Shown: positions 5,656-27,377 of the stretch, piece by piece
How the letters are laid out: every line of letters begins with the position of its first letter
Position numbering within the stretch: the stretch's first letter is position 1
Source of the DNA: Pelotomaculum sp.
GTDB taxonomy: Bacteria; Bacillota; Desulfotomaculia; Desulfotomaculales; Pelotomaculaceae
Direction of reading: 5' to 3'
Assembly (NCBI GenBank): GCA_018435055.1
Contig: JAHDOA010000016.1
Location: 62,001 to 126,000, forward strand
Length of the DNA stretch: 64,000 nt
Notes under the pieces: model-generated
Database searches by the model: none
Told to the model about the DNA's origin: nothing
What the model saw: the letters and a program-made list of their open reading frames with translations, nothing else
Translations under genes and position numbers: made by a program

Positions 5656-6448
5656 ATCATTTTACAATTTAACCGAAACACCCTTTTCCAGGGATATTCC
5701 AACCCATGAATTATATAAATCAGAGGTATTGGAAGAAACCCTCGGCAGGCTTAAGTACGCTGCAGTCCGCAAATGGTTTGCTGTTATTACCGGGGACTGC
5801 GGGACAGGCAAAACGACCACAATCCGCTACTATGCCCAAACGCTGAACCCGGCTAAATTTAAGGTGCTGTATATTTCAGATTCCAAGCTTACACCACGGC
5901 ATTTTTACAAGGGGCTTTTAGAGCAACTGGGCCATGTTGCAAAATTCTACCGGGGCGACGCCAAACGGCAGCTGCACCGGGAAGTAGATCTGATGCAGGT
6001 GGTTCACCATCAGCAGCCGGTTGTGGTCGTGGATGAAGCCCACCTTCTAGATAAAGAAATGCTGGAGGAAGTCCGGTTTCTCTTAAACATGAACATGGAC
6101 GCCCAAAGCCCGATGGCTCTTATTTTGGTAGGACAGAATGAACTTTGGGAAAAGCTGCAACTGCAGTCCTACGCTGCGATTCGCCAGCGGATTGATCTGC
6201 AGTTAAAACTAAACTACTATGACCGCTCTGAGGTAGGATCCTATATTAAAAAACATTTGGATTATGCCGGAGCCACTCAAGATATCTTCTCGGAGCAGGC
6301 TATTGATGACATCTACCGTTTTTCCAGCGGGACAGCCAGGCTGATTAACAAGGTATGTACCCACGCATTAATGTATGGCGCCCAAAACGGACATCGCATC
6401 ATTGATGACCGCATGGTTAAACGGGTTATTGAAGGTGAATTGTCATGA
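5648..6448 (+). CDS. AAA ATPase of the transposable element (ExeA/TniB-like)
   Basis: It is probably the target-selection or transposase-activating ATPase that works with the DDE transposase, by analogy with MuB, TniB and TnsC. The protein opens with the ExeA-type FYNLTETPFS motif. Walker A GDCGTGKTT and Walker B VVVVDEAH are intact, and a sensor-like ILVGQNEL follows. Start ATG at 5648 lies 9 bases after an excellent AAAGGAGG (5631-5638); ATG 5639 abuts that site and is unlikely. It overlaps the transposase 3' end, implying coupled translation. The stop TGA overlaps an ATG (6445) of the next gene. Confidence 0.9.
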   Translation: MFKSFYNLTETPFSRDIPTHELYKSEVLEETLGRLKYAAVRKWFAVITGDCGTGKTTTIRYYAQTLNPAKFKVLYISDSKLTPRHFYKGLLEQLGHVAKFYRGDAKRQLHREVDLMQVVHHQQPVVVVDEAHLLDKEMLEEVRFLLNMNMDAQSPMALILVGQNELWEKLQLQSYAAIRQRIDLQLKLNYYDRSEVGSYIKKHLDYAGATQDIFSEQAIDDIYRFSSGTARLINKVCTHALMYGAQNGHRIIDDRMVKRVIEGELS

Positions 6449-7440: not shown

Positions 7441-8823
7441 CTAGTACTCCCATTTGAAATTTTCAACTTCAGGAAACCCGGCCAGTGCTTCTTGCATGGT
7501 GTCGCAGATCCGCTGCAGCCCTTTCGGGGTTTTGGCTTCGCAGCGGGCTACCAGAACAGGTTGGGTATTGGACGCCCGGACCAGACCCCAGCCGTCGCCG
7601 AAGAGCACCCGCAATCCGTCCACGTCGATGACTTCATATTCGCGCTTAAATTGCTCCACCATCCCATGTACTACCTTGAACTTGTCCTGGTCAGGGCAGG
7701 GTACCCTGGTTTCAGCCGTAGAGTAATATTTGGGTACTTCAGCCAGTATTTTAGAGAGGGGCTCTTGGGAGTTTGAGAGAACCCTGAGGAGGCGGCCAGC
7801 GGCGTAGTAAGCGTCGTCAAAGCCGTAAAATTCGTCTGCAAAGAACATGTGCCCGGACATTTCCCCGGTGAAGATAGCCCCGATTTCCTTCATTTTGGCC
7901 TTGATCAGCGAGTGACCCGTCTTGTAGAAGAATGGCCTGCCTCCCAGTCGGACGACCTCATCCACCAGCGCCTGGGAGCACTTCACCTCGATGATTGCCT
8001 GCGCCCCGGGGTGTTTGGCCATGATCTCCCGCCAGTACAGGCACATCAGTAAATCACCCCAGATAATCCCGCCCGACTCGTCAACCACACCAATCCTGTC
8101 AGCATCGCCGTCAAAGGCGAGTCCCGCGTCGGCGTTGTTTTCCACAACGGCTTTTCTTAGCTCCGCCAGGTTTGCCGTTTTGACCGGATCCGGCTGGTGG
8201 TTAGGGAAAGAGCCGTCTGATTCGCAGTACAGCGGAATCACCTCACAGCCCCATGCCTCCAGGATTTGCTGGGCAAACAGCGAAGCCGTACCGTTGCCGC
8301 AGTCCACCGCAACTTTTAACTTTCGCGGGCCGAGCCGGATTTTGTCTTTGAGCATGGCCAGATAGGGGGATACCATGTCTAGTTCTTCCAGCCGGCCTGG
8401 GCCTGAAGTAAAATTTCCCGTAACCATAATATCTTTTAATTTTTGAATTTCATCACCATAAATAGTCCCACTTCCCAGGGCGATCTTGAAGCCGTTTTCG
8501 TCCGGCGGGTTGTGGCTGCCGGTGATCATAACTCCTCCATCTATACCGAAGTGAACCCTGGAGTAGTAAAGCATTGGTGTGACAACCAGCCCAATGTCGG
8601 AGACGTCACAGCCAGCGGTCAGAAGACCCCTGGTAATTGCGTCCCGCAGCCGGCTGGAGCTGAGCCGGTTGTCCCTGCCCACTAAAACTTTGCTGGAGCC
8701 GGATTTCTTAACATAAGTACCGAAAGCTTTTCCAAGCAGTTCCACGGTTTCGTTGGTTAAGTCCCTTTCAGCAACGCCGCGAATGTCATACTGGCGGAAT
8801 ATTTGTGGGTTAATTACCGTCAT
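7441..8823 (-). CDS. Phosphomannomutase/phosphoglucomutase
   Basis: It interconverts hexose 6-phosphate and hexose 1-phosphate; here most likely mannose 6-P to mannose 1-P for GDP-mannose. The 460 residues contain the alpha-D-phosphohexomutase signatures: an N-terminal FRQYDIRG, the phosphoserine loop GGVMITGSHNPPDENG, the metal loop LAFDGDADRIGVVD, the sugar loop GEMSGHMFF, and the C-terminal phosphate-binding loop RASNTQPVLVARCEA. ATG at 8823 is preceded by AAGGAGG with 7-base spacing and overlaps the response-regulator stop (ATGA). It is therefore the third gene of a kinase-regulator-mutase operon. The ManC gene nearby supports the mannose assignment. Confidence 0.93.
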   Translation of the reverse strand: MTVINPQIFRQYDIRGVAERDLTNETVELLGKAFGTYVKKSGSSKVLVGRDNRLSSSRLRDAITRGLLTAGCDVSDIGLVVTPMLYYSRVHFGIDGGVMITGSHNPPDENGFKIALGSGTIYGDEIQKLKDIMVTGNFTSGPGRLEELDMVSPYLAMLKDKIRLGPRKLKVAVDCGNGTASLFAQQILEAWGCEVIPLYCESDGSFPNHQPDPVKTANLAELRKAVVENNADAGLAFDGDADRIGVVDESGGIIWGDLLMCLYWREIMAKHPGAQAIIEVKCSQALVDEVVRLGGRPFFYKTGHSLIKAKMKEIGAIFTGEMSGHMFFADEFYGFDDAYYAAGRLLRVLSNSQEPLSKILAEVPKYYSTAETRVPCPDQDKFKVVHGMVEQFKREYEVIDVDGLRVLFGDGWGLVRASNTQPVLVARCEAKTPKGLQRICDTMQEALAGFPEVENFKWEY

Positions 8824-9515
8824 TTGCCGACCTCCTTCTCGAACTTGTACCCCGTTCCCCAAACAGTTTTGATAAATACAGGCTTAGAGGGATTCGCCTC
8901 TATTTTTTCACGCAGTTTCCGGATATGCACTGTAACAGTATTATCGTCACCGTAAAAGCAACTTTCCCAGATCTTGTCCAGTAAATGAGCTTTGGTGAAT
9001 ACAAGGCTGGGGCTCGATGCCATAAGCCAGAGCAATTCAAACTCCTTGGGGGTCAGCTCGATCTTGTTATTGTTCACTTCGACCACGCGCTTTTCATAGT
9101 CCATGGCTAGGTTGCCGTATTTTAATACGTTTTCATTGTTTGCCTTTTGATCCCTGCCTCTTCGCAAAACGGCTTTTACCCGCAGGGTTAGCTCGGACGG
9201 ACTAAAAGGCTTGGTCTGATAATCATCAATACCCATCCTAAAACCCACTATCTTGTCTACCTCATCGCTTCTGGAGGACAGAATGATCACAGGAACCTCC
9301 CGAAGTGCTTTCAGCTTCTGGTATGTTTCAAAACCATCCATATCGGGCATCATTATATCCAACAAAACCAGGTCGGGGGGTGATTGCCTGGCTATTTGCA
9401 GGGCTTCCTCACCGCTGGCGGCGGTGGCGACCTTGAAACCTTCCTTTCTCAAAGTGTGCAGCAATATTTTTAATATTTTCGGGTCATCATCGATCGCCAA
9501 AATACTATAAGCCAT
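8820..9515 (-). CDS. OmpR/PhoB-type response regulator
   Basis: This is a DNA-binding output protein of a two-component system. The receiver domain (1-115) has the acidic pair IDDD, the phospho-acceptor D in VLLDIMMPDMDG, and K in QTKPFSPSEL. The C-terminal winged helix (about 130-228) includes LTPKEFELLWLMA and DNTVTVHIRKLREKIE. It is 231 residues, the standard length. The kinase gene ends 4 bases upstream of it and the phosphomannomutase start overlaps its stop, so the three are co-transcribed. The target promoters are unknown; the mannose genes are the obvious candidates. Confidence 0.95.
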   Translation of the reverse strand: MAYSILAIDDDPKILKILLHTLRKEGFKVATAASGEEALQIARQSPPDLVLLDIMMPDMDGFETYQKLKALREVPVIILSSRSDEVDKIVGFRMGIDDYQTKPFSPSELTLRVKAVLRRGRDQKANNENVLKYGNLAMDYEKRVVEVNNNKIELTPKEFELLWLMASSPSLVFTKAHLLDKIWESCFYGDDNTVTVHIRKLREKIEANPSKPVFIKTVWGTGYKFEKEVGK

Positions 9516-11891: not shown

Positions 11892-12971
11892 TCAAAGCAC
11901 ATTGTCAAACCCTTTGTCCTTCAAAGCCTGCACGACCTTTTTTATCTCCTGTGCCCGGCTTTTGTGGCAGATTAACAGGCTGTCATAGTCGTTTACAACA
12001 ATCAGATCTTCGACTCCTACCAGCGCCACAGTCCTGTCATTGGAGATAACATAGGTGTTTACCGTATCCAGCAAGATCCCCTCGCCGTGAAGGACGTTGC
12101 CGAGTACGTCCTTTTCAACGTATCTTTCCAGTGCGGTCCAACTCCCAATGTCATCCCAACCGAAGTCGCAGGGAATTACATAAACGTTGCCGGCCCGTTC
12201 CATTAGGCCATAATCTATAGAAACTTTCGGCAGTTCCAGATAAATTTTTTGAACCGTTTTGGGGTACTGGTCAGTTTCCAGGCTGTCTTCAATTTCCTTA
12301 AGTCCCTCTGCAAGCAAGGGAATGTGCTTTTCGATCATTTTACGGATCAGGTCGATGCGCCAGACAAACATGCCGCTGTTCCAGAGGTAGTCCCCGCTGG
12401 CGAGGAACTCCAGGGCGCGGTTGATGTCCGGCTTTTCCAGGAAGCGGGCGGCCCGGTAGGTTGATATGCCGGCAGAAGTATCAATCAGCTCACCGCGGTT
12501 GATGTAACCGTAACCGGTTTCAGGGCTGTGGGGGGTAATGCCCAGGGTGACGATGTTATCTCCCCGGCTCGCGGTGGCTGCGGCGCTCCGCAGGACTTCA
12601 TGAAAATTGCGCACGTTGCCGATATAATGGTCGGCCGGCAGGACAATCATGACCTCCCGGGGGTTTTTTTGCCCCAGGACAAGGGCGGCCAGCCCTATGG
12701 CCGCGGCTGTGTCCCTGCCAAACGGCTCGATAATGACGTTTTCTTCAGGCAGCTGCGGGATCTGTTCCAGGATGATGTCTTTAAATTCCGGGCCGGCCAC
12801 GATATATATGTAAGGTATGCCGATCAGGCCCTCGAGCCTTTCGACGGTCAACTGCAGCATGGTCTTTTCGCCGATCAGGTTCAAGAACTGCTTCGGTTTC
12901 GCCATCCTGCTCCGGGGCCAGAACCTTTCTCCCCTGCCTCCTGCCATAATAACAGCGAAAGGCACTGTCAT
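11892..12971 (-). CDS. manC: Mannose-1-phosphate guanylyltransferase
   Basis: It makes GDP-mannose from mannose 1-phosphate and GTP. The 359 residues form a nucleotidyltransferase domain opening with the signature AVIMAGGRGERFWPRSR. The sugar-phosphate loop FLEKPDI and the metal-site region YLWNSGMFVWR follow. The protein has the short form, without the fused isomerase domain of AlgA. ATG at 12971 directly abuts GGAAGGAGGG; GTG at 12965 has better spacing and may be the true start, and a further in-frame start exists at 12983. Together with the phosphomannomutase at 7441 it supplies activated mannose for the divergent glycosyltransferase genes. Confidence 0.93.
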   Translation of the reverse strand: MTVPFAVIMAGGRGERFWPRSRMAKPKQFLNLIGEKTMLQLTVERLEGLIGIPYIYIVAGPEFKDIILEQIPQLPEENVIIEPFGRDTAAAIGLAALVLGQKNPREVMIVLPADHYIGNVRNFHEVLRSAAATASRGDNIVTLGITPHSPETGYGYINRGELIDTSAGISTYRAARFLEKPDINRALEFLASGDYLWNSGMFVWRIDLIRKMIEKHIPLLAEGLKEIEDSLETDQYPKTVQKIYLELPKVSIDYGLMERAGNVYVIPCDFGWDDIGSWTALERYVEKDVLGNVLHGEGILLDTVNTYVISNDRTVALVGVEDLIVVNDYDSLLICHKSRAQEIKKVVQALKDKGFDNVL

Positions 12972-12983
12972 CCCTCCTTCCAA

Positions 12984-13997: not shown

Positions 13998-15014
13998 TTG
14001 AAGATAGCCATGCTTTCTCCCATAGCCTGGAGGACACCTCCGCTTGGGTACGGCCCCTGGGAGCAGGTTGTGTCGCTGCTGACAGAGGGACTTGCCGCCA
14101 GGGGGATTGATGTTACTCTTTTTGCCACGGCCGACTCCGTAACACAGGCGAAGCTCCATGCCATAGCGCCGCATCCTTATGAGGAGGACAAGACGCTTGA
14201 CCCAAAGGTCTGGGAGTGTCTTCACATATCCGAGCTGTTTGAAAGGGCGGGGGATTTCGATTTAATCCATAATCATTTTGATTTTCTGCCCCTCACTTAT
14301 TCAAGCCTGACGGACACCCCGGTGCTGTCTACCATCCACGGGTTTTCATCACCGCAGATCCTTCCTGTATACAGAAAATACAACCGCAAGACTCACTATG
14401 TATCTATAAGCAACGCTGATCGCTCGCCGGAGCTTGACTACATTGAAACTGTCTATCACGGAATCGACCAGGAAAACTTTACTTTTCAGGAGATACCAGA
14501 GGACTATCTGCTTTTTTTCGGCCGCATTCACCACGATAAAGGAGCCGCAGAGGCTATCCAAATTGCCGGGCAGACCGGGATGAAGCTGATTCTGGCAGGT
14601 ATTATCCAGGATGAGGATTACTACAGATCGGCGGTTGAACCCCTCATTGATGGCATCAGGATCAGGTATGCGGGTGTCGCTGGGCCGGAACTCAGAAACA
14701 AGCTGCTTGGCGGAGCGAAAGCTCTGCTTCACCCGATAAATTTCAATGAGCCATTCGGGCTTTCTGTTGTGGAAGCAGGCGCCTGCGGAACGCCTGTAGT
14801 GGCTTTCAACAGGGGCTCCATGCCCGAGATCATTGAAAACGGCGCCAACGGTTTTCTGGTGCGTGATGTTGGTTCCGCGTCAGAGGCGGTACGCAGCCTG
14901 GACTCGATATCGCGCCGGAAGTGCAGGGATATAGTGGAGGAGAGATTTTCAAGGGAACGCATGGTGGAGGAATATATATGCGTTTATAACAAAATCATCG
15001 GGGAAAAAATTTAA
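13998..15014 (+). CDS. GT4-family (GT-B fold) glycosyltransferase
   Basis: It transfers a sugar from a nucleotide donor, here plausibly GDP-mannose. The N-terminal Rossmann domain starts MKIAMLSPIAWRTPPLGYGP, where the glycine-rich loop binds substrate. The C-terminal domain has LLFFGRIHHDKG, with the donor-phosphate-binding region, and the EX7E motif in EPFGLSVVEAGACGTPVV. The 338 residues are typical of the family. There is no signal peptide or membrane segment, so it is cytosolic. TTG start at 13998 follows AAGGAGG at 13981-13987. It is the first gene of a four-gene plus-strand cluster. Confidence 0.9.
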   Translation: MKIAMLSPIAWRTPPLGYGPWEQVVSLLTEGLAARGIDVTLFATADSVTQAKLHAIAPHPYEEDKTLDPKVWECLHISELFERAGDFDLIHNHFDFLPLTYSSLTDTPVLSTIHGFSSPQILPVYRKYNRKTHYVSISNADRSPELDYIETVYHGIDQENFTFQEIPEDYLLFFGRIHHDKGAAEAIQIAGQTGMKLILAGIIQDEDYYRSAVEPLIDGIRIRYAGVAGPELRNKLLGGAKALLHPINFNEPFGLSVVEAGACGTPVVAFNRGSMPEIIENGANGFLVRDVGSASEAVRSLDSISRRKCRDIVEERFSRERMVEEYICVYNKIIGEKI

Positions 15015-15033: not shown

Positions 15034-15981
15034 ATGAGTTCTTTAAAAAGTGAACCGGTTGTCAAACGATACGCCGGCAACCCGATCCTGACCAGGGATG
15101 ATGTGCCTTACCCGGTGGCCACTGTTCACAATGCGGGTGTGGTGAAAGCAAATGGCCGTTATATGATGCTCTTCCGCTCGCACCTCTTAAATGGCAGATC
15201 CATCCTGGGCCTGGCTGAAAGCACAGACGGCTATTCATTTAAAGTACGGCCAGAGCCTTTTATGACCCCGTCGCGGGACGGGGTATTCAGCGAGTACGAG
15301 GAGTACAGTGTTGAAGACGCGCGCATCTGCCATATTGACGGCGAGTTTCTGATCACTTACAGCGCCTATTCCAGGCACGGGGTGAGGATAGGCCTGGCCA
15401 GGACCACGGACTTTGATTCCGTCGAGCGGGTTGCCCTGATCACGCAGGCGGACCTGCGCAACGTGGTGCTCTTCCCGCAGAAATTCGGCGGGCGTTACGT
15501 CCGGCTGGACCGTCCCCATTCCGAAATCAGCCCCTGGTCTATGTGGATTTCCTACTCGCCGGACCTCATTCACTGGGGTGACTCGAGGGTCGTGGTAAAG
15601 CCGGTCGTCTACCACTGGGACGAAATGAAAATAGGGCCTGGCGCCACTCCTTTCAGGGCGGAAAGCGGCTGGCTGAACATTTACCACGGAGTTTTTGATA
15701 CGATGGACGGTGCTGTTTACAGGTTGGGCGTGATCCTGCACGACCTGCATGACCCGTCGCAGATCCTGGGTGTTGCTGACGAGTGGATTCTCCAGCCGGA
15801 AGACCCCTGGGAGATTACTGGTTATGTGCACAACGTGGTCTTTACCTGTGGCGCAGTTCCGGAGGAGGACGGCACAGTAAAGATTTACTGGGGTGGCGCG
15901 GACAAGGTCATGTGTGTCGGTACCGCCCGCATCAGTGATCTTGCAGCCATGTGCCTGGAAAAGCCAAGAAGCCCGATTTAA
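15034..15981 (+). CDS. GH130-family glycoside phosphorylase (probable beta-mannoside phosphorylase)
   Basis: GH130 enzymes phosphorolyse beta-mannosidic links to mannose 1-phosphate, or run in reverse. This five-bladed beta-propeller protein of 315 residues starts with RYAGNPILTRDDVPYP. It has the catalytic-aspartate motif VEDAR (residues 93-97), NVVLFPQKFGGRYVRLDRP, KIGPGATP, the histidine of IYHGV, and NVVFTCGAVP (266-275). The phosphate-binding basic residues expected in phosphorylases appear present, arguing against a pure hydrolase. There is no signal peptide. ATG at 15034 follows GGGGGAG, 19 bases after the GT4 stop. It is paralogous to the C-terminal domain of the protein at 18523. Confidence 0.87.
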   Translation: MSSLKSEPVVKRYAGNPILTRDDVPYPVATVHNAGVVKANGRYMMLFRSHLLNGRSILGLAESTDGYSFKVRPEPFMTPSRDGVFSEYEEYSVEDARICHIDGEFLITYSAYSRHGVRIGLARTTDFDSVERVALITQADLRNVVLFPQKFGGRYVRLDRPHSEISPWSMWISYSPDLIHWGDSRVVVKPVVYHWDEMKIGPGATPFRAESGWLNIYHGVFDTMDGAVYRLGVILHDLHDPSQILGVADEWILQPEDPWEITGYVHNVVFTCGAVPEEDGTVKIYWGGADKVMCVGTARISDLAAMCLEKPRSPI

Positions 15982-16188: not shown

Positions 16189-18486
16189 GTGCAAAAAGAA
16201 ATCAACCCATGTTTTGTCAGTTCTTATGTACCGAAAGAGTGTGGGATTGCTACATTTACGCATAATTTATTCACTTTCTATCAGAACCAGTATGCATCAG
16301 CCGGAAAAGTTGTAGCAGTAGATGGACTTCCCTCTGTTTACTACCCCAGGGAAGTCGATTTTATTTTTGACAAAAATAAAGTATCAGACTATACGGCAGC
16401 CGCCGGGCATATTAATGCAAATAATTTACAAGTTGTCAACCTGCAGCACGAATTTGGCCTGTTTGGCGGCCCGGAGGGCCGCCATATTGCACGTCTGCTG
16501 GAAAAACTGAAAAAACCGGTCGTTACGACCATCCACACGGTACTGCAACAACCCACCCTGGGTTATTATACCTCCCTCATCGAGGTTATCCAACGCTCCC
16601 AGCGGGTAGTCGTAATGAGCAACAAAGCGATTGAAATTCTTAGAGAGATTTACTACGTGCCCCCGGAAAAAATAGTGATGATACCGCATGGTGTGCCTGA
16701 CCTGCCTTTTGTGGAAACGGAGCCTTTTAAAAAGGAACTGGGCCTGGCCGGCCGCTTTGTGCTCCTTTCTTTTGGCCTGCTAAGCCCTGGGAAAGGCTTT
16801 GAGCTGGTCCTGGAAGCCCTTCCCGAAGTCGTCCGCAAGCACCCCGATTTGCTGTACATTATACTTGGAAAAACCCACCCGGAAGTGGTTAAGATTCACG
16901 GGGAAAGGTACCGGGAGAGCCTCCAAAAGTTGACTCGCGAAAATAAACTGGAAAATAATGTGATGTTTATCGACAAATTCGTGACGAACGAAATGCTGTA
17001 TAACTACATCAGCGCCTCCGACGTGTATGTAACCCCCTATCAATCTCAGGAGCAGATAACTAGCGGGACGCTGGCTTATGCTGTTGCGCTGGGCAAGGTG
17101 GTGGTCTCCACCCCATACCATTACGCCCAGGAAGTGCTTGCAGAAGACCGCGGCAACCTGGTGCCCTTCAAAAACCCGAAAGCTATGGCCGGGACCATGA
17201 GCGAGATTTTATCACACCGGGAGGACATGGAGAAGATGCGCCGGGCTGCCTACGAATACGGGCGCTCGATGATCTGGTCCAGGGTAGCCGAACTTTACCA
17301 CGGTTTGTTTCAAGACGTTTCCAAAGAATTTTCGCTGAAAAAACTACAAAAAATAAGCGTAGTCTACAAGAGCAGCCAGGAATATCTGAGAAGGCGAAAT
17401 CTGTACACAATGATTGAGCGCCTGACTGACGACACCGGTATTTTTCAGCACACCAAGTACGGTGTTCCCGACCTGAAGCACGGCTATTCCGCCGATGATG
17501 TAGGTAGGGCGCTGGGGATAATCATGAAGGTGGCCCTCTTTGACAAGGAGCCAGGGTATGATCAACTGGCCAAAAAATACCTGGCCTTCCTCCTTTATGT
17601 GCAAAAAGAAGACGGGCGGTTTCATAATTTTGTAGGCTATGACCGGCGGATTCTGGACGAAGACGGTGGCGACGACACCTTTGGCCGCGTACTGATGGGA
17701 CTGGGCAGCGCAGTCGCACTGAGTTCGGACCCATCTGTGACAATTCTGGCGAAAGAAATATTCGACCGTGCCATAGCCGGCCGGCAGCAGGACCTGCCGT
17801 TATCAACCTATCCAAAAGCACTGGCTTACAGCATATGTGGATTAGCCGACTACCTGAAGAAATATCCGGATGTACCGGAGGCGAGGGAATTACTCAGGAT
17901 AGGGGCGGACTACCTGGTCAAACTATACAAAGACAATAAAAGACCTGGTTGGGACTGGTTTGAGCCTTCAGTTACCTATGCTAACGCAAAGGTACCATAT
18001 GCTCTAATGATGGCGTACAGCATCCTTAAAGATGAAATTTATATGTCTACGGCATTGGTGACACTAAACTTTCTCACCAGCATACAGTACAACGGCACTT
18101 ACTTTGATATAGTGGGAAACAAGGACTGGCTGGTTTACGGGAAGGAGAAGGCTTCTTTTGATCAGCAGCCCATTGAGATTGGCTGTCTCGTGGAAGCCTA
18201 CTGCGAAGCCCTGCGAGAGACACATGACGAAAACTTCCGCAAACTGGCAAACAGGGTTTTTAACTGGTTTTTCGGTAACAACAGCCTGAAAGAGCCGGTG
18301 TATAACTTAAAGGATGACTATCCTCTGGACGGCCTTACCGAGACTGGCGTAAACGCGAACAGCGGCGCAGAAGCGGTGTTGTCGTTTGCCTTGGCGTTAA
18401 CATCTTTGAACGATATCAGCAAACGCAAAACCCTGGGGCGAAGGACAAGCCTGGCGAAAGCCAAAAAAAATCCGTCAATTGATTAG
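16189..18486 (+). CDS. GT4 glycosyltransferase fused to an alpha/alpha-toroid domain
   Basis: The 765 residues fall in two parts. Residues 1-375 are a GT-B transferase with CGIATFTHNL near the start, LLSFGLLSPGKGFELVLEAL, and SGTLAYAVALGKVVVSTPYHYAQEV in the donor domain. Residues about 400-745 are helical with repeating hairpins (EDGRFHNFVGYD, GGDDTFGRVLMGLG, GLTETGVNANSGAEA), the pattern of an (alpha/alpha)6 toroid seen in glycan epimerases, lyases and hydrolases. The toroid's chemistry is unknown; it may bind or trim the product. GTG start at 16189 lies behind GAGGTGATGTT. It is the third gene of the cluster and cytosolic. Confidence 0.83.
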   Translation: MQKEINPCFVSSYVPKECGIATFTHNLFTFYQNQYASAGKVVAVDGLPSVYYPREVDFIFDKNKVSDYTAAAGHINANNLQVVNLQHEFGLFGGPEGRHIARLLEKLKKPVVTTIHTVLQQPTLGYYTSLIEVIQRSQRVVVMSNKAIEILREIYYVPPEKIVMIPHGVPDLPFVETEPFKKELGLAGRFVLLSFGLLSPGKGFELVLEALPEVVRKHPDLLYIILGKTHPEVVKIHGERYRESLQKLTRENKLENNVMFIDKFVTNEMLYNYISASDVYVTPYQSQEQITSGTLAYAVALGKVVVSTPYHYAQEVLAEDRGNLVPFKNPKAMAGTMSEILSHREDMEKMRRAAYEYGRSMIWSRVAELYHGLFQDVSKEFSLKKLQKISVVYKSSQEYLRRRNLYTMIERLTDDTGIFQHTKYGVPDLKHGYSADDVGRALGIIMKVALFDKEPGYDQLAKKYLAFLLYVQKEDGRFHNFVGYDRRILDEDGGDDTFGRVLMGLGSAVALSSDPSVTILAKEIFDRAIAGRQQDLPLSTYPKALAYSICGLADYLKKYPDVPEARELLRIGADYLVKLYKDNKRPGWDWFEPSVTYANAKVPYALMMAYSILKDEIYMSTALVTLNFLTSIQYNGTYFDIVGNKDWLVYGKEKASFDQQPIEIGCLVEAYCEALRETHDENFRKLANRVFNWFFGNNSLKEPVYNLKDDYPLDGLTETGVNANSGAEAVLSFALALTSLNDISKRKTLGRRTSLAKAKKNPSID

Positions 18487-18522: not shown

Positions 18523-21500
18523 ATGGCAGATGAAGGGTTTAATGATTTAGAGTCGCTTTTTCATGAAAGCATCAAAGATGCCGTTGAGCAGACCAGGGAG
18601 TTCAAAGAAGTCGATGTGGTAATCGGCATCCCTTTTTATAACGAGAGGGGCATCCTGCCGGAAGTCCTGAAGGTGTTGGACCAGGGATTGACCGGTCTTC
18701 AGCATACGTGCAACTCTCTAATTGTCTTCGTGGGGGATCCCATTGGCGCCAAAATGCTGGAATCTATCAGGCATTTGGATTTAAAAGCACCTCATATCGC
18801 CTTTCTGATGAGGCCCGGGAGCAATGGCAGGGGGAACAGCATAAGGGCAATTTTAGAAATTGCCAATAATCTGGAGGCGGACGCGGTTATATTTGCGGCC
18901 GACCTGGCGCCGGAGGAAGACAGCGGGCTGCAGCCCGACTGGATCAAGCGCCTGATCGAGCCAATCAGGGAAGAATATGACTTCGTGGTGACATCTTTCC
19001 AGAAGCATTATTTTGAAGACCTTTTAGGAAGTCTGTTTACGGCTCCGCTGCTGGAGGTCTTTTACGGGAATAACATCAAGGGGTCTTTGAGCGGAGTTTA
19101 TGCCATATCCCACGATACTGTGGAAGATCTTTGCGCCAATATAAAATTCTGGGGCGACATCACGCAGGAGTTCGGCATTGACCTCTGGCTGGTAAGCCGG
19201 GCAATGCGTTGGAATAAAAAAATCTGCGAGATAGAACTCGGCGCCAAGCTGGAAGAAATCCCGCTTGAAAAATTAAACTACATTTTTAAAGAAAACGCCA
19301 GGTCGTTGTTTGAGTGTATAAAGAGGGATGAAAACTTCTGGAGCGCCAACAGGTTCATCAGCAAAACGCCCGATATATACCGCAGCAAGGACTATGACGT
19401 GCCCTTCAAACCGACCTATTCTACCCGGGACCTGACCCAGTTCAGGTATAGCTATATCCAGTACAAGAACCTTTACGACAATACCTACTACGACGACCTT
19501 TACGAGGGCATCGAGGACATCGAATCGATACCGGACAAAGACTACAGAGTAGAAGGGAAAATATGGGCTGAGATCGTCTATCACCTGTTGCTAAAGTACT
19601 GGTTTGTCAGTAACATGTGCAGCGACGATATCCTCAACGCGCTCACATTTGCCTTCAGCGGAAGGGTGGCCAGCTTAATTGACTTCATTCAGTCTGTGGA
19701 GGAGCCACTGGGGGGCATTCAAAATGTCGATGTTTATTTTATTATCTCAAGTGAGGTGGCATCGTTAAAGGAAGAACAAAGAAAAGATTTTTTAAGGCTG
19801 AGAAAGAAGTTCGTGCGGATGTGGGGTCAGAAAGATCTGGAAGCCAAACCGCCTCTCATCCCGGCCCACTACGTGGAATTTATACCGGGCGCTCCCATTG
19901 TACTGACTAAAAAAATAGAGGGTCTGGGAAGCAAGATTGTATCGTCGGAAGAAACGTTCAACAGGCTCCAGTCCCGCTACCGGGAAGCTTTCAGCCGTTT
20001 TATACACGAAGGGCTGGGGGTGCCGGAAACTGCTTGTCCCGAAACGATAATCCAGAGCATGAGAGAATTCATGAGTGAACTGGAAAAAACCATGGAATGG
20101 CTGCTGCCGGGGAATTTGCACACTGAGGAAGGAACCGGGCGGGTAGTAGACAAAATTTTCCTGCCTTTTCACTCGCCAGTGACTTTTTCTATAAAAGACG
20201 AAGTCTTCCGGGAGATGCTGATCCAGTTTCCACCGCTTAATGTCATGATCCCGTTGGAATGCAAGACTCCCAGGGAACTCATTAAAAAAATGGACGTCAG
20301 GACAGCCGTCAGCCTGGCCAACCTGGTTGAGACCAGAAAGTACGGGGACAGGTTAGCGCTTTTGTGGATGCTGGACAATTTGAGACCGGATAGTATGGGT
20401 GAGGTGGAGATTAAGCCGATTATACTGGGCAAGGAGGTCCTGGACGGCACTGTGCAGCTGGGCAATATCTCAGACCTTAACAAGCTCACTTCCAGGATTG
20501 TGGTCAGGCCCTTAAACAAGCGTATGGGGGGTGACTACCCGAAGCTGCGCTTCTGCCTCTTTTTACTCAGGCACATCATGATTGCCCAAAACTACGACAT
20601 CCTCTGGAGAACATACGCCAGGGAGAGGAAAAATCTGGGCAGTAAAATCCGCAACTCCCTGATCGGGCGTTACGAGACTATTGCCTTCTCCGCACACAAT
20701 ATATATGAAAACCTGCATCACCGGGGGCTGGTCCTGCATTTTCGGGCGCTGTCAAATAGGCTGGCGGACGCCGGCCATAACAAAGAGGCCCGTTTGATAG
20801 AATTAATGTGCGACGGCTATGGCTTAAGCCAGGTCCTCGAAGACGGCACTTTCCTGCCATGTTCGGCCTGGAGCTGGGCCAGCTACAGCTATAAAGGCGG
20901 AAAGAGTATTCCCACCCCGCTTTCCAGTCACGTCGAGGAGAAGTGGTTCAACCACGATTTCCTTGAGGAAATATATGCAGAGCTGGGCTACGACCCCGGC
21001 GAGATCATGAGAATGGTAATCCAGCTAATCGGTGAGGGCAGGGCCAGCGAAAACCTTTTGGACGTTCTTCTGGGCATAAGGCCCAAAGATGTGAATGTAG
21101 TTGTGCAGGAGTTCCAGGATTACCCGCCGGCGAAGCCCCTGGTCAGGTACGCCGGTAACCCAGTGCTGAGTCCAATCAAAGAGCATCCGTGGGAAAGCAA
21201 GTATGTCTTAAACACGGCGGCCTTCCGGGTAAAAGACAGGGTCTACCTTCTTTACCGGGCGTACGGAGATGACGAGGTGTCACGGATCGGGCTGGCTGTG
21301 ACGGACGGCTGCAACGTGCTGGAGAGACTGCCGGAGCCTGTGTTCGTGCCACAGGATATTACGGAAAAAAAGGGTGTGGAAGACCCGCGGGTAGCCATAA
21401 TTGATAACAAGATCTACATGCTTTATACTGCTTACGACGGTGTTACCGCACAGGTCTCGGCTGCCGCTATCGGGCTGGATGACCTGTTAAATAAAAGGTT

Positions 21501-22098
21501 TGACAAATGGGAAAGAAAGGGCCTTGCCTTCCAGGATATATGGGACAAGGACGCCATACTATTTCCAGAAAAAATAAACGGTAAATATATTATTTTCCAC
21601 CGGATAGAGCCCAGCATTTGGGTAACGCACCTGGATAAGCTCAAGTTTCCGGCACCCAAAGAAAAGCACTCCATCATCATGGGGCCGCGTTCGGGACGGA
21701 TGTGGGACTCCTTGAAAATAGGAGCAGGCTCCCAGCCCATCAAGACCAAATACGGATGGCTGCTTATCTACCACGGAGTAGACAGGAACAAGGTGTACCG
21801 ACTGGGCGTTATCCTGGTCGATCTAGATAATCCGGAGCGACTGCTCTATCGTTCGCCAAACCCGATCCTCTCTCCCGAAACTGAGTACGAGATCGGAAAG
21901 GACGGGGAGTGCTGGGTGCAAAATGTCGTTTTCACCTGCGGCGCGGTGCCGGCGGAGGATAAGGAAGTACTGGACGCCGGAGATGAAATTTTGGTTTATT
22001 ACGGCGCCGCGGATACCCACATATGCATTGCTACCGGCCGGGTAGGCGACCTGATACCGGAATCCGTCAGGCAGGAATTTGAGGGTAAGAGCAATTAA
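18523..22098 (+). CDS. GT-A glycosyltransferase / unknown middle / GH130 fusion (1191 residues)
   Basis: Residues about 29-330 form a GT-A glycosyltransferase with IGIPFYNERGILPEVLKVL, a metal-binding FAADLAPEED and GIDLWLVSRAM, reminiscent of mannosylglycerate and glucosylphosphoglycerate synthases. Residues about 330-865 are helical and unrecognised. Residues about 870-1185 are a GH130 propeller with VEDPR (952-956), KIGAGSQP, LLIYHGV, NVVFTCGAVP and YYGAADT. A synthase and a phosphorylase domain in one chain suggests a bifunctional enzyme building and recycling a mannoside, or a phosphorylase-like domain acting as transferase. It is the fourth cluster gene, 36 bases after the previous one. 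There are no membrane segments. Confidence 0.85.
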   Translation: MADEGFNDLESLFHESIKDAVEQTREFKEVDVVIGIPFYNERGILPEVLKVLDQGLTGLQHTCNSLIVFVGDPIGAKMLESIRHLDLKAPHIAFLMRPGSNGRGNSIRAILEIANNLEADAVIFAADLAPEEDSGLQPDWIKRLIEPIREEYDFVVTSFQKHYFEDLLGSLFTAPLLEVFYGNNIKGSLSGVYAISHDTVEDLCANIKFWGDITQEFGIDLWLVSRAMRWNKKICEIELGAKLEEIPLEKLNYIFKENARSLFECIKRDENFWSANRFISKTPDIYRSKDYDVPFKPTYSTRDLTQFRYSYIQYKNLYDNTYYDDLYEGIEDIESIPDKDYRVEGKIWAEIVYHLLLKYWFVSNMCSDDILNALTFAFSGRVASLIDFIQSVEEPLGGIQNVDVYFIISSEVASLKEEQRKDFLRLRKKFVRMWGQKDLEAKPPLIPAHYVEFIPGAPIVLTKKIEGLGSKIVSSEETFNRLQSRYREAFSRFIHEGLGVPETACPETIIQSMREFMSELEKTMEWLLPGNLHTEEGTGRVVDKIFLPFHSPVTFSIKDEVFREMLIQFPPLNVMIPLECKTPRELIKKMDVRTAVSLANLVETRKYGDRLALLWMLDNLRPDSMGEVEIKPIILGKEVLDGTVQLGNISDLNKLTSRIVVRPLNKRMGGDYPKLRFCLFLLRHIMIAQNYDILWRTYARERKNLGSKIRNSLIGRYETIAFSAHNIYENLHHRGLVLHFRALSNRLADAGHNKEARLIELMCDGYGLSQVLEDGTFLPCSAWSWASYSYKGGKSIPTPLSSHVEEKWFNHDFLEEIYAELGYDPGEIMRMVIQLIGEGRASENLLDVLLGIRPKDVNVVVQEFQDYPPAKPLVRYAGNPVLSPIKEHPWESKYVLNTAAFRVKDRVYLLYRAYGDDEVSRIGLAVTDGCNVLERLPEPVFVPQDITEKKGVEDPRVAIIDNKIYMLYTAYDGVTAQVSAAAIGLDDLLNKRFDKWERKGLAFQDIWDKDAILFPEKINGKYIIFHRIEPSIWVTHLDKLKFPAPKEKHSIIMGPRSGRMWDSLKIGAGSQPIKTKYGWLLIYHGVDRNKVYRLGVILVDLDNPERLLYRSPNPILSPETEYEIGKDGECWVQNVVFTCGAVPAEDKEVLDAGDEILVYYGAADTHICIATGRVGDLIPESVRQEFEGKSN

Positions 22099-23805: not shown

Positions 23806-24132
23806 TTATATCCCTAATGTCTCGATATATTTAGTTTTACGTATTGGAAGTTTATCTACTTCTTGCATAACGCGTTTAGCAGACCCATTGGCCCCCATCT
23901 TTGCGTACGGCTTATATAAGTAATCATTTAGGTTTTCATACTCATCTTGTGTAATCCAACCTCGCTCAATATAGCAAAGACCAAGATAAATGATTCTATC
24001 ATGGCCTAAACCTATAAGCATTTCAGTTTTGACATCTTTACGATCCATATACTTTGTTATATATGCCCAAAAACCGGACGATGCTATAACGGAGCATACG
24101 ATTGTAATAATCATTTGAATCCATGGTTCCAT
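23806..24132 (-). CDS. Holin-like phage membrane protein
   Basis: This 108-residue protein has one N-terminal membrane segment (MIITIVCSVIASSGFWAYI) followed by a soluble tail with RGWITQDEYENLNDYLYKPY, a pattern common in Firmicutes phage lysis modules beside tail genes. Holins permeabilise the membrane for an endolysin, but no endolysin gene is present here. The start overlaps the 3' end of the reverse transcriptase gene by 22 bases, so it is translated from the DGR transcript. It could alternatively be a membrane anchor of unknown role. Confidence 0.65.
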   Translation of the reverse strand: MEPWIQMIITIVCSVIASSGFWAYITKYMDRKDVKTEMLIGLGHDRIIYLGLCYIERGWITQDEYENLNDYLYKPYAKMGANGSAKRVMQEVDKLPIRKTKYIETLGI

Positions 24133-25340
24133 TCGGTTACCTCCTTATCAGACCTATCAAATATAACCAGCTTTTTATTGACCACCGTAACGTTTTTGTT
24201 GAATAAGTCCTCATAAAGCTGTATAAGACTTTTTCTTTGTTGCCTGGACAAAAGTTTATAGAAACTTCCCATCCAACCTTTGAACATATTCTCAACATTC
24301 TCATAGGGGATGCCGCCATTCTCCACCTTTATTGCTAGCTTCTTTAATTTTCTACGCATTGCTGTAACACGAGTTGGATTGATTCTTTTAATTATTTTTC
24401 CGTCCTTAGTAAGTGTGTATTTTACTTGAAGGTATTTGTAAGTGCTGCTTATCTTGACCATATGGGTCTTTTTCTCATTGATATGTATACCTAATTCATC
24501 CGCTATTACTCGAATATTATCCAACAAGTCTTGTAGTTCCTTCTTGTTTGGGTTCATGATGTACCAATCATCCATGTAACGTCCGTAAAATTTTTGACTT
24601 CTTACATATTTTACATAGTTGTCTATTCGATATGGATAATATATACCAATAATTTGACTTAATTGGTCTCCGATATTAACGGATTTGTTCATCCATTTCT
24701 CGCCGGTTAAAAGCTCTTTAGATACTAACCTATATTCCAGCTTATTGAATGTATTGGTTATACAGCTTTCATATTCTTCATCAGACATATATGAAACATC
24801 AATTTTAAATCCGTTAAAAATAATGGTCAACAACCAATCAATGAACTCGTCATCGTCTACTAACTTGAGTAATTCTCTCTTTGCAATCTCGTGAATGATA
24901 TTGTCGTAGAATTTTGAGAAGTCTCCAAATAAGATCCAACCTTCGTTACCGTACAGTTTGTAGTATCTATGAAGATGAACTTCAAACCTGTTTCTCTGAT
25001 GTGAAATACCTCGGCCTTTTACAGAGGCCCCGTTATCATAAATAATGCGTTTCTTTACTTCTGGGGATAAAATCTCATCGCACAAAACATGACGAATTAT
25101 ACGATCTTTGATTTGGATACTTGTAATAGGTCTTACTCGACCTCTTTCAGAAAGTAAAAACTCGTCTACTTTGCCGTTTTGCAACGTTCTGTAAACGAGG
25201 TCTTCTTGAATGGAGAAAATATACTTCAAGAAGTTCATCGCGAACTTTTGAGATGTTTCTTTCCATTTACTATTCTTTATAGAGGCCTTGTAAGCCCTAT
25301 ACAAGTTGTTGGCGTCACAGACGATTTCCTCATAATTCAT
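24111..25340 (-). CDS. Diversity-generating retroelement reverse transcriptase
   Basis: This enzyme copies the template repeat RNA into cDNA with errors at adenine. The 409 residues contain the fingers/palm motifs LSERGRVRPITSIQIKDRIIR, FGDFSKFYDNI, IGDQLSQ at about 226, GRYMDDWYIM at about 252 (catalytic YMDD) and INEKKTHMVKISSTYKYLQ. IGxxxSQ in place of the QGxxxSP of group II intron enzymes is the diagnostic DGR feature. No maturase or HNH domain follows. It lies directly downstream of the template repeat in the order target-avd-TR-RT, as in the Bordetella phage DGR. Confidence 0.96.
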   Translation of the reverse strand: MNYEEIVCDANNLYRAYKASIKNSKWKETSQKFAMNFLKYIFSIQEDLVYRTLQNGKVDEFLLSERGRVRPITSIQIKDRIIRHVLCDEILSPEVKKRIIYDNGASVKGRGISHQRNRFEVHLHRYYKLYGNEGWILFGDFSKFYDNIIHEIAKRELLKLVDDDEFIDWLLTIIFNGFKIDVSYMSDEEYESCITNTFNKLEYRLVSKELLTGEKWMNKSVNIGDQLSQIIGIYYPYRIDNYVKYVRSQKFYGRYMDDWYIMNPNKKELQDLLDNIRVIADELGIHINEKKTHMVKISSTYKYLQVKYTLTKDGKIIKRINPTRVTAMRRKLKKLAIKVENGGIPYENVENMFKGWMGSFYKLLSRQQRKSLIQLYEDLFNKNVTVVNKKLVIFDRSDKEVTEWNHGFK

Positions 25341-25447
25341 AGAATATTCACCGTGATAGCAATACTTACCGTAGTAAATTGCGTCCGGCTTTGTAATTTA
25401 TCCTTGTCGGAAAGGATAGCATCTCCTTCTCTGTTGGTTAGGCAGAG

Positions 25448-25539
25448 AATCCGGACGAACCCCATTAGAGTTCGAAGCGTTGTTGTAGTTCGCGTTGCCA
25501 TTGTTGTTCACATTAGCGAAATTAGACGAAGAAACGACG
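25448..25539 (-). repeat. DGR template repeat (TR)
   Basis: These 92 bases lie between the avd stop (25545) and the RT start (25340) and match the variable repeat at 26570-26661 except at 16 positions. Fifteen of the sixteen are T on the plus strand, which is A in the sense of the target gene. The sixteenth, at 25535, is a C at the far edge and probably marks the limit of homology. In the frame of the target gene the TR encodes mostly Asn (AAY) codons at the variable sites, which allows the widest range of substitutions. Confidence 0.97.
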
Positions 25540-25544
25540 CAAAA

Positions 25545-26036
25545 TTAGATGTTACCCTGTAGATATGATTTGATTTTGTTGTCGTACTGACGCCACTTTT
25601 TTATTAAACCGATTTCTCGGTTAATAGCTGCTACATATTTTCCATAGATGTTTATATCCACTTCAAATATCTCTACGACTCGCTGTAATTCCTTAATAAG
25701 TTGTTCGCAGTTTACGATGGCATTATTTTGATAATCCCTTCTCTGTTCATACTCATGCATAGAGGTTGGATATATGGAGTTAGCTGCCCGAATATTATTT
25801 GTCAATAGCGAAGCCAATTGGTCGATTCGGGTTTTAAAATTCTGCATTAAATATCGGTACTTTGCAAAATCTTCCTTGTCATCTTTACCATAGGCATAGC
25901 GCATCCGAACAAAATGATTTATATCCTTAATCCCAAATCCTCTTTGCATCAAATCGATAAGCATGTCGTGTAATTCGATTGAATATGTTATAACTTCGAA
26001 CCTGGACTCCTTGCGATTGCTTACCAAAACACTCAT
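25545..26036 (-). CDS. Avd-like accessory variability determinant
   Basis: The product is a 163-residue, strongly helical and basic protein consistent with the four-helix-bundle Avd, which forms a pentamer that binds the DGR RT and the TR RNA. Helices include TYSIELHDMLIDLMQRGFG, NFKTRIDQLASLLTNNIRAA, CEQLIKELQRVVEIFEVDI and INREIGLIKKWRQYDNKI. ATG at 26036 overlaps the XkdX stop (TAATG), so translation is probably coupled. A longer in-frame extension exists, but it would read through XkdX in another frame. Position just before TR and RT supports the call; sequence alone gives moderate confidence. Confidence 0.82.
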   Translation of the reverse strand: MSVLVSNRKESRFEVITYSIELHDMLIDLMQRGFGIKDINHFVRMRYAYGKDDKEDFAKYRYLMQNFKTRIDQLASLLTNNIRAANSIYPTSMHEYEQRRDYQNNAIVNCEQLIKELQRVVEIFEVDINIYGKYVAAINREIGLIKKWRQYDNKIKSYLQGNI

Positions 26037-26176
26037 TAGTACGTGGTCCCTGTGATTTCTTCGAACTCGGCTATGGTTATCCAACCCTTTTCCACAGCAT
26101 CGCGAACGCGGCCGGCATTCCATACGCCAAGTACAAAATAACGCTTTACCTTATTGTAATTACTGCTATGTTCCAT
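26036..26176 (-). CDS. XkdX-family small phage protein
   Basis: This is a 46-residue protein starting MEHSSNYNKVKRYFVLGVW with the hallmark VEKGWITIAEFEEITG ending. XkdX proteins lie between tail-fibre and lysis genes in many Firmicutes phages; their role is unclear. ATG at 26176 is preceded by an excellent AAAGGAGGATCACC. The TAA stop shares its last base with the Avd start (TAATG). Confidence 0.85.
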   Translation of the reverse strand: MEHSSNYNKVKRYFVLGVWNAGRVRDAVEKGWITIAEFEEITGTTY

Positions 26177-26188
26177 GGTGATCCTCCT

Positions 26189-26500
26189 TTACAGTTCTAT
26201 TCCGGCCATCATAGCCACATATTCAATATCGGATTGCATTTTAATCCGAGCCAGTTCAGAAGCCGAAAGCTCTCGAAGAACAAACCAGTATTTTCCGGGT
26301 TCCTGTTCCGTTACCTGAACAAACTCCATATTGTTGTGCGTTTCGCTGTTCACGCCATCACTAACAATAATAGGAGAGCAGTTTTCGTTAAAAATATCAG
26401 CATTAATGGCTGTATTGGAGATAAAGTTATTCCCGTTAAGCTTAAGGTTATCGAGAACCGTTCCATCGGCAAGAGTAATCGTATAGGTTTTACTATCCAT
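26189..26500 (-). CDS. Conserved small phage tail-region protein
   Basis: This 103-residue protein begins MDSKTYTITLADGTVLDNLKL, a beta-rich start often seen in genes placed between a phage tail fibre and XkdX. It ends with a helical ELSASELARIKMQSDIEYVAMM segment. It has a good GGAGG ribosome site and no membrane segment. The function is unknown; position suggests a tail accessory or chaperone role. Confidence 0.7.
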   Translation of the reverse strand: MDSKTYTITLADGTVLDNLKLNGNNFISNTAINADIFNENCSPIIVSDGVNSETHNNMEFVQVTEQEPGKYWFVLRELSASELARIKMQSDIEYVAMMAGIEL

Positions 26501-26531
26501 TTTATCTAATCCTCCTTATTAAAACATCAAC

Positions 26532-26546
26532 GGGGCACAAGGCCCC
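26532..26546 (-). promoter_or_regulatory. GC hairpin downstream of the variable repeat
   Basis: GGGGC (26532-26536) and GCCCC (26542-26546) can form a 5-bp stem with a 5-base loop, 10 bases beyond the target-gene stop and about 23 bases beyond the VR end. In the Bordetella DGR a GC hairpin just downstream of VR is required for efficient homing. The stem here is shorter and further away, so the role is inference. Confidence 0.4.
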
Positions 26547-26555
26547 AAGATTTAG

Positions 26556-27377
26556 TTAACCAATAGCGAAAGCCGGACGAACCCCATAAGAGTACGAAGC
26601 GGTGTTGAAGGACGCGTAGCCATCGCGGTACACATAAGCGAAAGAAGACGAAGAAAGGACGTCTCTTAGCCAGATACTTACTCGATTGTTAATTGCTCTA
26701 GGGTTGAGCCTGAACAAAGAGAGCTGTTGTTTATCAATAGTGGTTCTGGTAACAATCGTAACTCCATCACTAGCAGGAGTACGGATATAAGACCCATAAA
26801 CCATAATCTCGTTCATTAACTCGACTGTGGAATCGAACCAGGCAGCAGCAGAAGGATAACCATCTGTAACCGCGTTTACAAGATATTCCCTATGTGTAAG
26901 AAGCATATCGCCGAATGCTGTAGAAATAGTAGTCTTAGCGTCATTGAGGTTCTCTCTATACATGAGAGAGCCAACATAACCGCCCTCGGTTGTGTTTGTC
27001 TCATTCATCATCGCATTATAAAGACTTGTACTGGGGACGATTACCAGATGGTGATTCGTAAATGCGGTATCGCCGCAGTTATACCAGTAATTCATATCGG
27101 CAATTACCCAGTTTACTCCATTAATAACCCAGTAATCTCCGATGAACAGATCATCAAATGTTCCGGCTTGAATAGCCGCCTTTTGAGCTGCGGTAACAGC
27201 GGTTCCAAGATTTTTTCCTCTGTAAACATTTCGACGATTGATTGCAGATACCAGACCGGCGAATTCAACCGCAGCATTAGTCACCAGAATCTTCTTCGTG
27301 CCGTTACTTCCATCTTTAATAAGAATATCATCACTGTTAAATCGAGTATCGGCAGCATAATCAATAAGTTTTGCCAT
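26556..27377 (-). CDS. DGR target: tail-tip protein with C-type-lectin-like C-terminus
   Basis: This is the protein whose 3' end is diversified. An N-terminal part (1-50) resembles phage tail proteins (MAKLIDYAADTRFNSDDILI). The C-terminal 150 residues fit a lectin-like/DUF6273-type fold ending in SIWLRDVLSSSSFAYVY ... SYGVRPAFAIG. GVRP(A/V)F at the very end is typical of DGR-diversified proteins. The last 31 residues lie in the VR and contain 13 codons that are A-rich in the template. It is probably the receptor-binding tip of the tail. ATG at 27377 follows GGAGGAAAATAAA. The frame is intact despite the variability. Confidence 0.93.
   Translation of the reverse strand: MAKLIDYAADTRFNSDDILIKDGSNGTKKILVTNAAVEFAGLVSAINRRNVYRGKNLGTAVTAAQKAAIQAGTFDDLFIGDYWVINGVNWVIADMNYWYNCGDTAFTNHHLVIVPSTSLYNAMMNETNTTEGGYVGSLMYRENLNDAKTTISTAFGDMLLTHREYLVNAVTDGYPSAAAWFDSTVELMNEIMVYGSYIRTPASDGVTIVTRTTIDKQQLSLFRLNPRAINNRVSIWLRDVLSSSSFAYVYRDGYASFNTASYSYGVRPAFAIG
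26570..26661 (-). repeat. DGR variable repeat (VR)
   Basis: It is a 92-base near-copy of the TR at 25448-25539, positioned at the 3' end of the target gene. On the plus strand the TR has T and the VR has another base at 26572, 26588, 26594, 26602, 26608, 26611, 26612, 26618, 26624, 26626, 26627, 26630, 26636, 26644 and 26645. The 15-base invariant stretch CCGGACGAACCCCAT (26573-26587) near the stop codon probably contains the initiation-of-mutagenic-homing site. Confidence 0.97.

Follow-up and report, generated by a model that had tools for sequence, protein, structure and literature searches.

What does a protein do that carries a nucleotide-sugar-type transferase, a long unrecognised stretch and a glycoside phosphorylase in one chain, and are its two outer units equal partners? 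The gene raising this question lies in a 64,000-nucleotide stretch of a Pelotomaculum sp. contig (the whole stretch analysed, hereafter the window). A reading of the sequence alone had described the gene as a 1191-residue fusion of a GT-A transferase, an unrecognised middle (residues 330–865) and a GH130 phosphorylase, in which two catalytic units might prime and extend, or extend and trim, the same glycan. We assessed the reality and spread of this fusion, the state of each catalytic site and the genes around it.

Extent and spread of the fusion gene

The frame runs from an ATG to a stop through 1191 codons with zero internal stops, confirming a single-chain fusion at exactly the position proposed (Table 1). 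It is preceded by a ribosome-binding-like AGAGAGG, starts 36 bp after the GT4-toroid gene and is the fourth gene of a plus-strand run (GT4, stand-alone GH130, GT4-toroid, fusion). Pfam and PDB matches of the protein were to GT2-like/GT78-like and GH130 families and no others, and its sequence has no obvious membrane region. Full-length homologues, 37–95% identical to the window protein, have the identical domain order, and a profile search with the middle part, of the kind that the sequence-only reading had suggested for following the domain order across Firmicutes, found the order kept in 48 of 399 genomes drawn evenly across the phylum. Virtually all of these matches lay in open frames of ~1170–1260 residues; a few, partial matches lay in shorter frames (718–1102 residues), which were probably cut off at contig ends. 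A profile of residues 1–430 gave an equivalent result among 113 genomes of the class, and at this sensitivity no stand-alone middle or transferase (1–430) domain was found in the 399 phylum or 113 class genomes. Dozens of independent genomes contain the fusion intact, which rules out a gene-calling or assembly artefact; the copies that are split (L015/L051 and L046) appear to come from frameshifted assemblies. At one locus (L026:8210–17858) the GT4-toroid and fusion genes are duplicated as a pair, and the second of the two fusion proteins is only 54% identical to that of the window.

Table 1. Features of the fusion gene and its neighbours, in window coordinates.
Feature	Residues	Positions	Strand	Basis
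Phosphomannomutase/phosphoglucomutase		7441–8862	−	Pfam, NCBIfam
Mannose-1-phosphate guanylyltransferase (ManC type, GDP-mannose synthesis), divergent neighbour		11892–12983	−	Pfam, NCBIfam
GT4 transferase, first gene of the run		13998–15014	+	Pfam
Stand-alone GH130, mannobiose-phosphorylase-like		15034–15981	+	Pfam, NCBIfam
GT4 transferase fused to an (alpha/alpha)-toroid-like domain (two separate genes in most relatives)		16189–18486	+	Pfam, context
Three-part fusion gene, 1191 aa		18523–22098	+	Translation; homologues
GT-A fold, catalytic-like core, mannosylglycerate-synthase-like	30–270	18610–19332	+	Pfam PF00535; Foldseek 2y4m/2bo4; hhalign with haloarchaeal GT
Degenerate DxD motif, Ala-Ala-Asp	125–127	18895–18903	+	Alignments, tree
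C-terminal helical part of transferase unit	300–425	19420–19797	+	hhalign; Foldseek; identity
Mainly helical middle domain without recognised relatives in sequence or fold	440–868	19840–21126	+	Pfam, PDB, Foldseek
Most conserved aromatic stretch of middle domain, PCSAWSWASYSYKGG, candidate glycan site	779–793	20857–20901	+	Conservation
GH130 domain, β-1,2-mannoside phosphorylase type	872–1180	21136–22062	+	Pfam, NCBIfam, PDB, Foldseek

Elsewhere in the window, a prophage-like stretch (24111–27377) holds a diversity-generating retroelement, with a reverse-transcriptase-like gene (24111–25340, minus strand), a template repeat (25448–25539) and a variable repeat (26570–26661) inside another minus-strand gene (26556–27377); the two repeats differ nearly exclusively at plus-strand T (coding-strand A). 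Two adjacent frames at 4297–6448 resemble, by sequence reading, an IS21-type transposase and its helper ATPase.

Active sites of the two outer units

Phosphorylases acting on β-1,2-mannosides work reversibly: (Man)n + phosphate ↔ (Man)n−1 + α-mannose 1-phosphate. The C-terminal domain of the fusion matched Glyco_hydro_130 (PF04041) over residues 894–1176 (E = 2 × 10−54, 185 bits against a cut-off of 26), and its nearest PDB sequences, 7fip (2 × 10−61) and 9fj8 (9 × 10−56), are the β-1,2-mannoside phosphorylases Teth514_1788/1789; 9fj8 was also the top Foldseek match of the full-length model. The NCBIfam model BManbPhaseBMBP matched at 3 × 10−75 and 253 bits, missing its equivalog cut-off of 450 bits, so we do not file the domain as a β-1,2-mannobiose phosphorylase proper. 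The Asn and two Asp named as binding mannose at the −1 site of Teth514_1789 (PMC4264767) align to N897, D954 and D1164 of the fusion, and six basic residues (R912, K1009, R1027, K1065, H1084 and R1093) are identical to those of Teth514_1789 and invariant wherever covered in a 60-sequence alignment, with the GH130 motif segments of 18 further, partly more distant members likewise conserved. In hydrolytic GH130s, the phosphate-binding basic residues are replaced by acids (PMC4599007); no such replacement was seen in the fusion GH130s at the residues covered in homologues. Judged by its residues, the GH130 domain has a complete β-1,2-mannoside phosphorylase active site, with three phosphate ligands whose exact assignment we infer.

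The N-terminal part, scanned alone, matched Glycos_transf_2 (PF00535) at residues 34–168 with 23.3 bits, exactly the cut-off. The GT78 family model (PF21969) had no match in the fusion protein, and membership of GT78 or GT81 by direct sequence comparison failed, the link running through fold and an archaeal intermediate only. This intermediate, the one relative returned by a plasmid search for other phyla, is a 381-residue haloarchaeal transferase (22.6% identity over residues 25–271) that aligned by hhalign to fusion residues 32–391 (probability 97.9%, E = 3 × 10−13) and itself matches the glucosyl-3-phosphoglycerate synthase model (E = 1.6 × 10−8) and, weakly, the mannosylglycerate synthase model. 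In a Foldseek search with the full-length model, mannosylglycerate synthase (2y4m/2bo4), a GDP-mannose transferase, was the leading transferase match (E about 1 × 10−10, TM 0.60–0.68 of target), with an alignment of ~430 columns that covered the whole 377–380-residue target and matched the overall GT78 fold, including its C-terminal helices. Because the full-length model is only moderate (pLDDT 67, pTM 0.43), the fold call relies on the agreement between Foldseek and the hhalign alignment to the archaeal relative. Together, the two alignments place the transferase unit at ~30–425, of which residues 300–425 are the least conserved stretch of the fusion protein (mean identity 28.7%), and the boundary at residue 330 given by the sequence-only reading was therefore ruled out: the unrecognised part spans ~440–868. 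The haloarchaeal enzyme is encoded on a plasmid as a stand-alone protein with an intact DAD motif (L104:5007–6149), and is a possible free-standing model for the eroded N-terminal unit.

The structures of mannosylglycerate synthase and GpgS (PMC2581804) show the metal coordinated by a His together with the second Asp of the DxD motif; the first Asp forms pairs with a Lys and with an acidic side chain. Aligned to the archaeal relative and mapped by motif onto these solved enzymes, an assignment that we infer, the window protein has AAD and no His where GT78 has DxD and a metal His, and Arg at the Lys position. The first acid is Ala, Thr or Pro in the window's clade, almost all of 78 sequences lack the metal His at its expected position, and hardly any fusion member has a complete DxD/metal-His set. 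Glu-Ala-Asp occurs in several of the more distant members; in the deep-branching L115 it is accompanied by the Lys and by a His at the position of the archaeal His. The metal Asp127 position is retained as Asp or Glu in 50 of 57 non-redundant members, and the nucleotide-side motifs IGIPFYNE, NGRG and GIDPW are strongly conserved.

Placed on a tree built on the middle and GH130 domains only, with the transferase left out, loss of the metal Asp amounts to approximately three changes: one in a clade of Syntrophomonadaceae type, one in L112 and one in L076. Well-supported branches force two of these, and the GH130 site is intact in every member that lost the Asp. Genome G197 encodes the fusion twice: L111 keeps the usual motifs, L112 has its transferase site scrambled (FSSYL, NDANRE), and the GH130 site is full in both. 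Mean pairwise identity is 71.5% for the GH130 domain, 47.9% for the transferase core and 50.1% for the middle domain. The repeated loss of the metal Asp beside an always intact GH130 site indicates that constraint differs between the two halves; as read from these alignments, the transferase site is eroding while the GH130 site never changes. The picture of two equal catalytic units thus does not hold, the GH130 residues being constant and the transferase DxD/metal-His set incomplete nearly throughout. Loss of catalytic residues across orthologues, which had been named in advance as the finding that would count against the proposal, was seen in the transferase of part of the family and not in the GH130 domain.

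Two readings of the N-terminal unit have to be weighed against this pattern. The fusion may be an active two-enzyme synthase, in which the N-terminal unit starts or builds a chain from GDP-mannose and the GH130 domain lengthens or trims that chain. The retained Asp127 position, the three conserved nucleotide-side motifs, the site of L115 (with ExD, Lys and His at the archaeal-relative position), the GDP-mannose genes nearby and the action of GpgS, a relative by fold, in polysaccharide synthesis (PMC2581804) all argue for such activity, against which stand the replaced first acid and the Lys-to-Arg change in the window's clade, the misplaced metal His and the approximately three metal-Asp losses with GH130 still intact; we regard this synthase as possible, if somewhat short of probable. 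Alternatively, the N-terminal unit may be a pseudo-transferase without transfer activity, its role being to bind GDP-mannose or glycan and to regulate or position the GH130 domain, as the losses at the DxD, Lys and metal-His positions and the G197 pair would suggest; although the fold and several nucleotide-side motifs are constrained in most members beyond the needs of a pure scaffold, we hold this second reading to be just as tenable as the first. A sensing or vestigial transferase joined to a phosphorylase is, accordingly, about as likely as the prime-and-extend or extend-and-trim enzyme first proposed.

The middle domain, gene neighbourhood and proposed function

Among the 399 phylum genomes, the middle domain (~430 residues) was found solely inside fusion proteins, and residues 440–868 had zero matches in Pfam, NCBIfam or PDB sequences. 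Structure prediction, which the sequence-only reading had called for, gave a good, mainly helical model built from 24 homologues (pLDDT 80, pTM 0.81). A Foldseek search of this model against the PDB returned nothing under E 0.001 (best TM 0.25 among the listed matches), ruling out known folds such as a cyclisation barrel or metallopeptidase, and viral models likewise offered no fold relative; the claim that the middle resembles nothing recognised therefore stood, with its start moved to near residue 440. Since residues 779–793 (PCSAWSWASYSYKGG) and 803–809 (HVEEKWF) are conserved as strongly as the GH130 domain, they probably mark a ligand site, likely for a glycan.

The divergent upstream side of the locus holds, together with the ManC and phosphomannomutase genes, a superoxide dismutase-like gene and a two-component pair. 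Where a locus has enough flanking sequence, ManC, phosphomannomutase or both are in most cases found close to the fusion, in variable order; neither lies within the ~16 kb covered at some distant homologues (for example, L106, L111, L114, L115 and L121). GT4b and toroid genes accompany the fusion over most of the sampled depth, and the toroid profile was found in 43 of the 48 fusion genomes versus 65 of the 351 others (Fisher P = 1.5 × 10−22, uncorrected for relatedness). One relative has, in addition, a GH5 gene close to GH5_18 exo-β-mannosidases and a GT4 gene extended by a mannose-6-phosphate isomerase cupin domain (L030:13597–14994), the latter corresponding to the first gene of the window's run. 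The toroid domain itself (profile A4; window 17350–18483) is related to the solved YPO2471 (7tem, E = 2 × 10−12), and occurs in about a quarter of the sampled phylum genomes, with or without the fusion.

Taken together, we lean, by a small measure, towards the fusion being a cytoplasmic phosphorylase of β-1,2-mannan turnover, with a mannosylglycerate-synthase-like module that primes chains or senses GDP-mannose and a middle domain that handles the glycan. The GH130 domain would make or use mannose 1-phosphate, which neighbouring enzymes may exchange with the GDP-mannose pool. The N-terminal unit may originally have laid a mannosyl primer; in the window lineage it might still prime with an altered site or merely bind GDP-mannose as a sensor or anchor, such that members with a fuller transferase site would prime chains and others might only sense or anchor. 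From its conservation, we guess that the middle domain holds the glycan and passes it between the outer domains. The conservation of the fusion in many anaerobes beside GDP-mannose-making genes suggests an intracellular mannose polymer, undescribed in the bacteria that carry it, which could be a mannose store or protectant similar to Leishmania mannogen, its existence, linkage and direction of turnover all being presumed. Against this favoured reading, we know of no bacterial intracellular β-1,2-mannan in fusion-carrying organisms, and for the Thermoanaerobacter enzymes salvage was proposed instead (PMC4264767). Mannosylglycerate synthase, moreover, is a retaining α-transferase, so any product that the N-terminal unit formed in the canonical way would carry a linkage on which GH130 could not act. 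It is unlikely that the GH130 domain instead has a different linkage or acceptor as its target (such as β-1,4 or a mannosylated small molecule) to yield a compatible solute rather than a polymer: the missed equivalog cut-off and the fact that mannosylglycerate synthase makes a solute count for this, but both nearest characterised enzymes are β-1,2-specific, and they scored 210 and 192 bits in the PDB sequence search against about 77–87 for β-1,4 enzymes.

Comparison with known systems

The outer domains are of known types, whereas neither their combination nor the middle domain seems to have been described in the searchable literature; our search, mostly without subscription journals, found no description of the fusion. 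It would mark a widespread and so far undescribed mannose pathway in anaerobic Bacillota (12% of the sampled phylum genomes), and it contains a ~430-residue domain without sequence or fold relative that is always tied to a β-1,2-mannoside phosphorylase. The family also offers a natural series in which catalytic residues disappear from a glycosyltransferase but not from the enzyme fused to it, making reuse of a transferase fold as a nucleotide-sugar sensor directly testable.

Teth514_1788/1789 of Thermoanaerobacter match the C-terminal domain over their whole length and share its catalytic Asp, −1 site and basic residues, but are stand-alone proteins of ~300 residues, whereas the fusion GH130 carries ~870 extra residues. 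The Thermoanaerobacter GDP-mannose/GH130 cluster resembles the fusion locus in its mannose-1-phosphate guanylyltransferase, GT4 and (in relatives of the window locus) GH5 genes, and a salvage role has been proposed for its GH130 enzymes (PMC4264767). GT78 mannosylglycerate synthase and GT81 glucosyl-3-phosphoglycerate synthase have the overall GT-A fold in common with the N-terminal unit, and GT78 also the C-terminal helical part, but the window protein differs in lacking a direct sequence-model match, the first DxD acid and the metal His.

A glucose enzyme (PMC10834661) joins a transferase, an extra middle domain and a length-adjusting phosphorylase in one chain, in the same order as the fusion; however, the two chains share no domain family, the fusion is of mannose rather than glucose type and differs also in showing no obvious membrane region and, by Foldseek, its middle is unlike the (alpha/alpha)6 barrel found there. 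Leishmania GT108, which has a GH130-like propeller with dual transferase/phosphorylase activity, makes the β-1,2-mannan mannogen (PMC8950772) and, compared by description, is like the fusion as proposed here in its β-1,2-mannan type, its GH130-like propeller and its pairing of transferase and phosphorylase, but one propeller performs both reactions, whereas the fusion has a separate GT-A unit. If fusion carriers do hold a β-1,2-mannan reserve, it would be a bacterial counterpart of Leishmania mannogen.
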